Shown here piece after piece: positions 62,703 through 64,000 of a stretch of 64,000 bases of DNA. Under the pieces are notes generated by a model, which saw nothing but the letters and a program-made list of their open reading frames with translations, was not told where the DNA came from and ran no database searches. How positions within the stretch are numbered: position 1 is the first letter of the stretch; every line of letters begins with the position of its first letter. The stretch comes from Arenibacter sp. F26102 (lineage in GTDB: Bacteria; Bacteroidota; Bacteroidia; Flavobacteriales; Flavobacteriaceae): the NCBI RefSeq assembly GCF_023015865.1, contig NZ_JALKBC010000002.1, forward strand, positions 186,001 through 250,000, written 5' to 3'. A program made the translations under genes and the position numbers.

Positions 62703-63314
62703 TTAGTACGCGTGCCTTTCTTCAAATTCAGGGCAATCCAACCTAATATCCGTATTCAATAATTCCTTGTTCAACAAATTACAATAGTCCTGCTCGTTGT
62801 TCCTACTGTAAAATTTACAGCCGTAACAGGTCCTTTGAACGGTAAGTATTCCACTTCTATTTAATTGATAGATAAGTTTGCTTATGGTGCCGAATAAACC
62901 TTCCAGGTCGGTCTGATTTATATTTGTGAGCTGAGCTTTTAAGGGATTGGCAAAATTGGAGGTTTCTTCCACCATTTTATTGCCAGTTGTGGACAAACCA
63001 ATGGAATAACTTCTACTATCATTGGAGGAGTAGTTTTTGGTTATTAAGGCTTTCTTGTCCAACACTTTAATAGCATCACTTATAGTTGGTTTGGTAATAT
63101 TGAATTCTTTGGCCAAGTGACTTACATTACAAAATTCGGTTTTGTGGTAAGCGATGAAAATTAAGATTTGGATTTGAATGGGACTTAATCCCAATAATTT
63201 AGCTTTATCCCATAGCAATACCTTGAACGCTTCGGATATACGTTCAAGTCCGGCAACAATTTTACTGGAAACGTCCATCTCCTGATGGTCTGGATTAAAA
63301 ATACTCTTGTCCAT
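62703..63314 (-). CDS. MarR-family regulator with a C-terminal four-cysteine motif
   Basis: A 203-residue winged-helix regulator: dimerisation helix at the N-terminus (KIVAGLERISEAFKVLLWD), helix-turn-helix HLAKEFNITKPTISDAIKVL (about 85-105) and wing KNYSSNDSRSYSIGL. Unlike ordinary MarR proteins of about 150 residues, it has a tail containing Cys163, Cys166, Cys178 and Cys194 (C-x2-C-x11-C-x15-C). This spacing suits a metal or Fe-S site or redox switch (inference). Palindromic operator-like sites precede this gene and its two neighbours, a broken DUF2024 gene and a thioredoxin-like gene. Confidence 0.88.
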   Translation of the reverse strand: MDKSIFNPDHQEMDVSSKIVAGLERISEAFKVLLWDKAKLLGLSPIQIQILIFIAYHKTEFCNVSHLAKEFNITKPTISDAIKVLDKKALITKNYSSNDSRSYSIGLSTTGNKMVEETSNFANPLKAQLTNINQTDLEGLFGTISKLIYQLNRSGILTVQRTCYGCKFYSRNNEQDYCNLLNKELLNTDIRLDCPEFEERHAY

Positions 63315-63316
63315 AT

Positions 63317-63347
63317 AAAAAGCCTGCCGGGATTTTGCCCGACAGGC
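63317..63347 (-). terminator. Terminator hairpin immediately before the marR-type gene
   Basis: Minus-strand GCCTGTCGGG / CCCGGCAGGC forms a 10-bp stem with one mismatch and a 6-nt loop, followed by TTTTT and then 2 bp to the ATG. Because the -7 element abuts the hairpin, only transcripts coming from the upstream DUF2024/thioredoxin genes contain it whole. Confidence 0.7.
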
Positions 63348-63379
63348 AAAGTTAGTTATCCTAATTATATTATTGGCAA
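63347..63379 (-). promoter_or_regulatory. marR-type gene promoter with operator-like palindrome
   Basis: TTG at 63377-63379, 22 bp, then TAACTTTG at 63354-63347 on the minus strand matches the Bacteroidota promoter. Degenerate palindrome TTAGTTATCCTAA (63352-63364) overlaps the -7 element, consistent with autoregulation. Confidence 0.65.
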
Positions 63380-63642
63380 TTTTTCATTTCTATGATATAA
63401 TACCCATTTTTATTGATGGTATCCGCTATGGTATCTGGAACTTGTTCCATATGGTAGAACTTACATTCCTTGGAGGATAATTCAGCTGTTTGGAACGGCT
63501 TTTTGGATAGAAATTCACGACCGTAACTAAAAATAAAGTCCTTATTTTTCATAGTACTGGGTACTAGTATATCAAAATTCATGGTCTATTGGTCTTCACG
63601 GGCTACGTAGGTGTCCCAAACCCATATTTTCATGGCGTTCAT
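63370..63642 (-). pseudogene. DUF2024-family gene interrupted by an in-frame amber codon
   Basis: Read from ATG 63640-63642, 18 codons encode MNAMKIWVWDTYVAREDQ. An in-frame TAG (63586-63588) follows, and then the frame continues TMNFDILVPSTMKNKDFIF to a final EMKNC near the stop at 63370. Both halves match the DUF2024 family, whose members begin with a KVAVWDTYV-type strand and continue HFDILVP. One base change (AAG to TAG) would restore the full protein. The 70-residue part after the stop has its own ATG at 63580-63582 and could be separately translated. Either a recent nonsense mutation, read-through, reinitiation or a sequencing error. Confidence 0.8.
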
Positions 63643-63665
63643 TACTAAAATTATGAAATAAATTA

Positions 63666-63678
63666 TTAGGAATCCTAA
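63666..63678. promoter_or_regulatory. Operator-like palindrome upstream of the DUF2024 gene
   Basis: TTAGGAATCCTAA: 5-bp arms TTAGG/CCTAA around AAT, 23 bp before the DUF2024 start codon. The same word, with small changes, occurs upstream of the two neighbouring genes. Confidence 0.65.
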
Positions 63679-63697
63679 CTTTTTGGGTTAATTTTTT

Positions 63698-63931
63698 TTA
63701 ACCCTTTACATCTGCCATGGAAGCGCCAAAGTTAATGTGGAGCACATTTCCAGTAGGGGTAACCAAAGCTGGAACCGATTTAACACCTGCTTTTTCGGCT
63801 TCGGGAATACGAGATTTGCTGGTACCGAAATGTACAATTTCTACATTGTCTTTTCCTACTAATTCTAAGATCTCATGTTCTGCACTTAGGCATACTGGAC
63901 ATCCTGCGTGATAAAAAACTGATTTTTTCAT
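63698..63931 (-). CDS. Small thioredoxin/glutaredoxin-like protein with CPVC active site
   Basis: The 77-residue protein MKKSVFYHAGCPVCLSAEHE... shows the thioredoxin-fold start and the dithiol motif Cys11-Pro-Val-Cys14, with a cis-Pro region KSVPALVTPTG. It has no signal peptide and is shorter than classic thioredoxin (about 105 residues), nearer to glutaredoxin size. It is presumably a cytosolic thiol-disulfide exchange protein. Its promoter carries the same palindrome as the MarR-type and DUF2024 genes, implying shared control. Confidence 0.87.
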   Translation of the reverse strand: MKKSVFYHAGCPVCLSAEHEILELVGKDNVEIVHFGTSKSRIPEAEKAGVKSVPALVTPTGNVLHINFGASMADVKG

Positions 63932-63966
63932 TGTTCTTAAATTTAGGTTATAGCATTATTGCAATA

Positions 63967-63996
63967 CAAATATAGTAAGGAATCCTAACTATTCAA
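63967..63996 (-). promoter_or_regulatory. Promoter of the thioredoxin-like gene with operator in the spacer
   Basis: On the minus strand TTG (63994-63996), 19 bp, then TATATTTG (63974-63967) is a textbook Bacteroidota promoter. Its spacer is nearly filled by a 21-bp near-perfect palindrome (63972-63992: ATAGT.AGG.AAT.CCT.ACTAT), containing AAGGAATCCTAA. Repressor binding here would block RNA polymerase. Confidence 0.75.
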
Positions 63997-64000
63997 ATTA

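Follow-up and report, generated by a model that had tools for sequence, protein, structure and literature searches.

A candidate four-cysteine MarR regulator and a conserved palindrome as its probable operator at a thioredoxin-like locus of Arenibacter sp. F26102

The marR locus of Arenibacter

The window analysed here is a stretch of 64,000 nucleotides (nt) from Arenibacter sp. F26102 (family Flavobacteriaceae; contig NZ_JALKBC010000002.1, positions 186,001 to 250,000), and its last part carries, all on the minus strand, a thioredoxin-like gene (trx), a DUF2024 gene and a gene encoding a MarR-family protein with four cysteines in its C-terminal tail (Table 1). An earlier examination based on the letters of this DNA (the sequence-only reading) had placed a related palindrome upstream of each of the three genes, and all three palindromes were recovered at the same positions. 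Relative to the consensus TTAGGANTCCTWA, the palindrome at O2 (TTAGGAATCCTAA) is exact, the one at O1 (TAAGGAATCCTAA) has one mismatch and the one upstream of marR (TTAGTTATCCTAA) has two. On the coding strand the trx palindrome lies between a TTG and TATATTTG and the marR palindrome overlaps TAACTTTG, both as had been claimed. The palindromes are considered below as operators of the MarR protein.

Table 1. Features of the marR locus in the window
Feature	Position	Strand	Description	Match
marR	62703..63314	minus	203-amino-acid MarR-family protein; C-terminal C163, C166, C178 and C194, plus C62	Pfam MarR_2
Terminator-like hairpin, marR leader	63322..63347	minus	10-pair stem, then TTTTTAT reaching the ATG; the first base of the 5' arm is the final base of the -7 box	
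marR -7 box, TAACTTTG	63347..63354	minus	overlaps the operator	
marR operator, coding strand TTAGGATAACTAA	63352..63364	minus	predicted autoregulation; conserved at 99 of 115 loci	
DUF2024 gene, apparently decayed	63370..63633	minus	TAG in frame at codon 16; remnant ATG open reading frame 63370-63582	
Site O2, coding strand TTAGGATTCCTAA	63666..63678	minus	in the trx-DUF2024 gap, 19 nt past the trx stop; lacks a TAnnTTTG box	
trx	63698..63931	minus	77-amino-acid CPVC thioredoxin-like protein	2k8s
trx -7 box, TATATTTG	63967..63974	minus		
Operator O1 of trx, coding strand TTAGGATTCCTTA	63976..63988	minus	between the -33 TTG and the -7 box; conserved in 100 of 106 relatives	

The marR product matched the Pfam profile MarR_2 (PF12802) with 43.4 bits against a cut-off of 27 (E 3.8e-11). 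When its AlphaFold2 (AF2) model, with a predicted local distance difference test score (pLDDT) of 72, was compared with known structures using Foldseek, MepR was the top match (1.5e-7) and RovA and SlyA were found within the first 25. The closest named relatives are from Arenibacter, with A. arenosicollis at 91% identity. The trx product is homologous to the solved structure 2k8s, named Thioredoxin (6.5e-25), and scored below the Pfam cut-offs for PF13192 (18.3 against 24.8) and PF13098 (15.7 against 27). The solved structure 2hfq is a homologue of DUF2024; we take the source organism of both structures to be Nitrosomonas europaea.

Conservation of the operator in Flavobacteriaceae

Sampling of 199 genomes of the family turned up a MarR orthologue in 45 (E ≤ 1e-20). 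A further 80 named loci, chosen as the best among 346 relatives, brought the total to 125 loci, and 115 were left after loci with identical marR DNA were removed. Sites were scored if they had no more than two mismatches to TTAGGANTCCTWA and lay within 150 bp of a gene start, and the reversed consensus served as the control. In the unique loci, sites were found upstream of trx (100 of 106), of lip (54 of 57), of DUF2024 (19 of 78) and of marR (99 of 115), against 1, 8, 2 and 7 sites, respectively, for the control. The lip gene, an uncharacterised secreted gene of the relatives that is missing from the window locus, was absent from the locus in all 19 cases with a DUF2024 site. The commonest variant differed between promoters: 67 loci have TTAGGATTCCTTA before trx, 27 have TTAGGATTCCTAA before lip and 46 have TTAGGATTACTAA before marR. 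The sequence-only reading had staked its proposal on the palindrome recurring in related genomes, and it was indeed found there upstream of the orthologues.

The pattern TTAGN5CTAA occurred three times in 308,645 bases of flanking sequence. With up to three mismatches allowed, the window contained 51 matches where 36.6 were expected, and in the 5.44-Mb genome from which it comes the strict consensus was found in two places, both at this locus, while the reversed control was found three times on the forward and twice on the reverse strand. As such counts alone leave chance possible, the signal of the palindrome lies in its position and its conservation.

In a diverged clade (L064, L066, L067 and L069) a variant operator, TTAGNTNAACTAA, occupies one or two of the positions where the operator normally lies. 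This could be a natural change of specificity that can be mapped to residues of the MarR protein. The recognition-helix substitution D80E was considered as its cause and rejected, since the E form goes together with the standard operator in L266 and L267.

Co-occurrence of MarR and the operator

The trx gene was found in 38 of the 199 genomes (E ≤ 1e-12), all of them among the 45 with a MarR orthologue (P = 4.6e-34 if the genomes are independent). Across these 45 genomes the strict consensus occupied 76 distinct places, of which 51 were within 5 kb of marR, one was at a distant trx-lip operon and 24 were outside the module. The distant operon, in genome G102 (L138), lies 26 kb away on the contig that carries marR and has kept the operator. 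Twenty of the 24 off-module places were examined, 14 lying inside mechanically called open reading frames and six between them. A wider regulon beyond the module in the 45 genomes was rejected, as no gene recurred among the 20 places.

Haem-protein targets in other Bacteroidota

In a wider set of 395 Bacteroidota genomes, MarR was detected in 28 (E ≤ 1e-15). The four-cysteine pattern was present in 25 of 26 newly fetched loci, and the remaining one (L328) has four cysteines with a longer spacing. Twenty-three diverged loci (314,877 bases) contained 22 sites with at most one mismatch, against 0.7 expected from a Markov model (maximum of 30 runs, 3) and one for the reversed control. Nineteen of the 22 were within about 200 nt before trx, lip, DUF2024, protoglobin, cytochrome P460 or marR; the other three (L336, one in L338, and L345) were not so placed. 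The assignments to protoglobin and P460 (PF11563, PF16694) were confirmed with Pfam for the seven proteins tested.

The association with haem genes was seen only where MarR was present. As a control, P460 and protoglobin genes were located across the phylum. Of the 16 from MarR-containing genomes, 10 (six of 10 P460 genes and four of six protoglobin genes) carried a site with no more than two mismatches at 72 nt or less from the gene start, whereas none of 17 from genomes outside the 28 carried one within 300 nt (Fisher, 8.7e-5); close protoglobin orthologues taken alone gave 4 of 6 against 0 of 6 (P = 0.06), and the P460 proteins of the MarR-less genomes share no more than about 31% identity with the queries. 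The comparison omits three MarR-less protoglobin loci (L373, L384, L385) for which no placement was obtained, and another four MarR-less genes (L367, L377, L379, L386) were placed by weak matches only (E 5e-4, 3e-4, 6e-4 and 5). Genome G697 has two protoglobin genes; L387 detected the first of them a second time, and the other was counted as a miss. In genomes G634 and G886, a P460 gene on a different contig from marR (L352 and L354) is preceded by an exact operator.

Recurrence in other phyla

Diverged four-cysteine MarR genes of Thermus, Deinococcus, Nostoc and Alphaproteobacteria also have sites of the TTAGGANTCCTWA type beside them, and sites near such genes came from four phyla in all. 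Fourteen plasmid-borne MarR loci were fetched, two from Cytophagales and 12 from other phyla. The four-cysteine tail was visible in all 14, with the middle spacing longer in other phyla than the C-x2-C-x11-C-x15-C of the window protein, and in most of the relatives from other phyla a histidine follows the last cysteine. A site with at most one mismatch was present in six of the 14 loci, or in 10 if the core TAGGANTCCTA is counted. These 10 are from Spirosoma, Thermus, Sphingopyxis, Nostoc, Deinococcus, Novosphingobium and four Rhizobiaceae, and nine of the sites are about 55 nt or less from the start of marR or of a cytochrome gene, the Spirosoma site being 213 nt before DUF2024.

The loci analysed first were nine MarR loci from outside Bacteroidota and the two Cytophagales plasmid loci; the nine (78,200 bases) contained seven sites where 0.13 were expected. 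Among loci left out of that first set and tested afterwards, namely three with MarR that had been fetched earlier (L296, L300, L301) and three with trx in which no relative of the window MarR was detected (L289, L290, L292), none of the six had a site with at most one mismatch. Weaker versions of the operator were seen in Hymenobacter and Tistrella. In Thermus, the operator (TTAGGAATCCCAA) is 24 nt before a cytochrome gene whose product matches the solved structure 7ead (1e-94), which we take to be the Thermus thermophilus cytochrome c'-beta named in PMC11928373; in strain HB27 of that species the MarR gene is TT_RS10585 and the cytochrome gene TT_RS10590. The MarR neighbours in other phyla include Hmp, catalase, hexameric tyrosine-coordinated haem protein (HTHP), protoglobin, Tpx, MOSC, TlpA-like proteins and globins, and homologues of lip adjoin MarR in Deinococcus and Rhizobiaceae.

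Some further arrangements were seen on plasmids and in Cytophagales. In a Citrobacter plasmid (L292, 4887-5000), a more distant four-cysteine MarR gene and a trx homologue are divergently oriented, with a long, different palindrome (AATTATAGTATCGAATCGATACTATAATT) between them, and a ROF-family gene comes after the trx homologue. Genes related to this trx copy were found on 56 Enterobacter plasmids. Two Cytophagales loci (L286, 5734-6000; L287, 5703-5990) encode proteins of 88 and 95 amino acids directly upstream of marR; these have no Pfam match, and a likeness to ROF is an impression gained by eye alone.

The link between regulator and operator, which the sequence-only reading had inferred, is supported independently by the presence of trx only with MarR (38 of 38), by the targets distant from marR (L138, L352 and L354) and by recurrence in other phyla. 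Comparison of these sequences makes it very probable that the MarR protein uses an operator of the TTAGGANTCCTWA type.

Promoter geometry and RNA structures

PMC9723704 gives the flavobacterial sigma-A -7 box as TAnnTTTG at -12 to -5. Of 100 trx promoters, 90 have this box beginning exactly 14 nt past the start of the operator, and 64 of 99 marR promoters have it at +10, within the operator. The trx and marR sites are therefore placed to block polymerase. Repression and autoregulation by MarR, which the sequence-only reading had also drawn from the placement of the palindromes, are likely given these positions over the promoter elements.

The claim of a palindrome upstream of DUF2024 stood as far as the site itself is concerned, but no TAnnTTTG box follows O2 in any of the 19 loci with DUF2024 (the window included), and one follows it in only two of 54 with lip. 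In 37 of the 38 listed loci where the distance could be measured, O2 lies 14-21 nt past the trx stop. In 36 of 73 loci O2 forms the 5' arm of a covarying hairpin with a downstream arm matching at least seven of the eight positions of TCCTAACT. When a slightly different pattern was used to define a downstream half-site, one was found after O2 in 35 of 73 loci, after O1 in 0 of 100 and after the marR operator in 1 of 99, compared with 34 of 5000 random stretches. In 35 of the 36 hairpins the unpaired centre of the palindrome can pair with the base facing it (27 Watson-Crick), a number reached in 0 of 20,000 shuffles; the pairs are T-A 17, T-G 8, G-C 4, A-T 3 and C-G 3, these being counts of sequences and not of independent events. 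Examples in the gap between trx and lip or DUF2024 are L078, L237 and L099.

One stretch of sequence at O2 may therefore be read in two ways, and it may serve both as a DNA operator and as an RNA structure. An alternative is that O2 is primarily an mRNA hairpin, acting in stability or attenuation, which resembles the operator. The second arm, the central pairing, the missing -7 box and the distance from the trx stop all suit such a hairpin. We regard it as unlikely, as the full 13-bp palindrome is kept although its left part would suffice, and in 37 of 73 loci, including the window, where O2 has no second arm, the downstream sequence is below the threshold for that arm.

A second structure was found in the marR leader. 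In the window, a stem followed by TTTTT takes up the stretch from the -7 box to the ATG. Among 92 related leaders of 25-60 nt, a stem of at least seven pairs was present in 79, with TTTT no more than 8 nt after it in 65 of the 79, and the mean folding energy was -15.2 kcal/mol compared with -3.9 kcal/mol for shuffled sequences. Different leaders have different kinds of pair at almost all positions of the stem, the outermost, for example, being G-C, T-A or A-T. In 58 of 59 leaders with both a stem and a box, the 5' arm starts before the start site predicted by the -12 to -5 rule. With this geometry, the terminator would insulate the repressor gene from read-through of the trx operon: RNA reading through from that operon would form the whole terminator and stop, and RNA from marR's own promoter, lacking part of the arm, would pass it.

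Apparent decay of DUF2024 in the window, and other genes at the locus

The sequence-only reading had listed DUF2024 as a gene without noting damage, and an intact DUF2024 gene is not supported in the window. The frame is broken by the early stop codon, and the ATG open reading frame is a truncated remnant for this reason. The remnant still matches PF09630 (63.2 bits against a cut-off of 27, E 2.1e-17). All 61 distinct DUF2024 relatives from the 80 named loci have at least 85 amino acids and keep both MHFD and CxxCH, and the window copy has lost both. Compared with A. arenosicollis, the ratio of non-synonymous to synonymous substitution rates (dN/dS) is 0.71 for DUF2024, 0.11 for marR and 0.02 for trx; the DUF2024 values against six other Arenibacter loci are 0.17-0.44. 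Other Arenibacter genomes in which DUF2024 was detected (L183-L187, L189, L192 and L193) have the gene intact. On these comparisons the window copy looks recently decayed. The stop may stem from a sequencing error, which would leave the other losses unexplained.

No homologue of lip was detected elsewhere in the Arenibacter window genome at E 0.001, and lip has neither a Pfam family nor a Foldseek match below E 0.19 (model pLDDT 70). No gene family other than those of trx, DUF2024, lip and marR is common to more than 12 of the 115 loci. Classed by eye, a transporter-like gene is upstream in five loci, the Arenibacter window genome among them, and an ArsR-like gene (10 loci) or an SRPBCC-like gene (nine) is near the module, upstream of marR (e.g. 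L070, L075). A PADLOC search gave only weak matches, to the CARF3, Csa3 and CasR models, and no viral relatives of MarR were confirmed in a search of viral contigs.

Proposed mechanism and the nature of the signal

The reading that we prefer, at a probability of about two in three, is of an autoregulated local MarR repressor with a four-cysteine sensor tail that is released from DNA by reactive nitrogen or a related oxidant. A MarR dimer would bind TTAGGANTCCTWA (core TAGGANTCCTA), and, with the operator between the -33 and -7 elements of trx and overlapping the -7 box of marR, binding should block RNA polymerase. The regulon in Flavobacteriaceae would be tiny, consisting of trx, lip, DUF2024 and marR. 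The tail, as a labile iron-sulfur (Fe-S) cluster, a zinc site or free thiols, would be modified by reactive nitrogen or a related oxidant, leading to release. Each of the 45 orthologues has all four tail cysteines, and 38 of the 45 have C62; the tail is somewhat more probably a sensor than not. Protoglobin and the cytochrome P460/c'-beta families bind nitric oxide (NO) or act on hydroxylamine. The redox role put forward by the sequence-only reading remains plausible, but the presence of protoglobin and cytochrome P460 in the wider regulon points at least equally to reactive nitrogen, and we put reactive nitrogen as the main signal at even odds.

Several observations weigh against this reading. 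The strict consensus gave 107 strand hits over the 45 genomes, against 90 for its reversed control. No promoter was recognisable at O2 in the search for TAnnTTTG, and the TTAGNTNAACTAA operator is left without an explanation in the recognition helix. The AF2 model places most of the cysteine tail below a pLDDT of 50, and no homologue of the tail was found in the PDB below E 0.4. Two Paraburkholderia loci with four-cysteine MarR genes lack the operator, as do the trx homologues of Cytobacillus, Thiothrix and Citrobacter. The same is true of the P460 genes of G811 and G817, which are on a different contig from marR, and of two of the six protoglobin genes in MarR genomes, which have no near site; the P460 gene of G571 adjoins marR and also has no near site, the closest being about 330 nt upstream. 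Enzymes acting on peroxide are also found among the MarR neighbours.

The last point bears on an alternative in which repressor and operator are the same but the signal is peroxide, disulphide stress or sulfane sulfur, with trx and lip repairing oxidised thiols. The CPVC thioredoxin, thiol peroxidase, catalase, TlpA-like redoxins and a CMD-family peroxidase-related enzyme, all targets or neighbours of MarR, would fit such a signal. In distant Bacteroidota and Thermus, however, the position of trx is held by protoglobin and P460/c'-beta, which are better known for NO and hydroxylamine, and we consider a peroxide or thiol signal the less likely one. More improbable is a purely structural role for the four cysteines in holding zinc, with another ligand, such as a metal or a small aromatic compound, being sensed. 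Many MarR proteins are ligand sensors, the C-x2-C...C...C arrangement followed by histidine in most relatives from other phyla is a possible zinc site, and the transporter-like gene noted by eye in five of 115 loci could suit a ligand of this kind; against this, no family beyond the module genes exceeds 12 of 115 loci and the wider regulon contains redox and haem genes. That the palindrome is bound by some other, unlinked regulator with MarR as a co-regulated passenger is very improbable, for while TTAG...CTAA-type MarR boxes are common, MarR is in every one of the 38 trx genomes, the operator precedes haem genes only where MarR is present and it recurs beside MarR in other phyla.

Extending the preferred reading of a reactive-nitrogen-responsive repressor, we tentatively suggest, at less than even odds, a so far undescribed regulator family across Bacteroidota, Deinococcota, Cyanobacteriota and Pseudomonadota. 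Its members would carry a C-terminal Fe-S (Cys4) sensor of NO or hydroxylamine and share the ancient operator TAGGANTCCTA, with targets swapping between protoglobin, P460/c'-beta and trx-lip-DUF2024, so that trx-lip-DUF2024 would be a reactive-nitrogen defence not recognised before. Flavobacteria would have layered control, with one operator as a hairpin arm and a terminator over the marR promoter. If the reading is correct, the DUF2024 and lip families, which lack a function (lip also lacking a Pfam model), gain one that can be tested, the module in 45 of 199 sampled family genomes gains a named regulator and operator, and nitrogen-oxide and redox response genes of several phyla gain a predictive DNA motif.

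Comparison with known systems

MarR repressors are well known, but the four-cysteine subfamily, its operator and its regulon appear to be new on the comparisons made here. No description of any of them was found in searches judged by the titles and abstract openings of open-licence PubMed Central (PMC) papers, a weak negative as most subscription journals lie outside that set, and the only match to four operator strings in open-licence PMC text was in a mouse stem cell paper.

The known regulators that share most with the Arenibacter protein differ from it in distinct ways. The OhrR-like thiol-switch MarR proteins share the fold and the proposed sensing by cysteine; OhrR uses an N-terminal cysteine and controls ohr, and the window protein matched the OhrR equivalog profile NF052638 only weakly (24.6 bits against a cut-off of 200). 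NsrR and IscR are Fe-S- and NO-responsive regulators of the Rrf2 family. A possible cysteine-ligated cluster and nearby genes for NO detoxification are shared with them, but the protein family is different, the Rrf2 Pfam profile giving 18.9 against a cut-off of 30. For 2k8s and 2hfq, the homologues of trx and DUF2024, the comparison is with the structures alone. The T. thermophilus cytochrome c'-beta locus (7ead) shares both the four-cysteine MarR and the operator, and there the target is a c-type haem protein rather than trx, lip or DUF2024. MepR, SlyA/RovA and MarR itself share the winged-helix core and the TTAG...CTAA type of box and have palindromes in both target promoters and their own; palindromes are conserved at both promoters in most of the 115 unique loci. 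The Arenibacter MarR differs from these in its additional four-cysteine C-terminal tail, in a regulon of redox, secreted and haem proteins, and in an operator that recurs across phyla.

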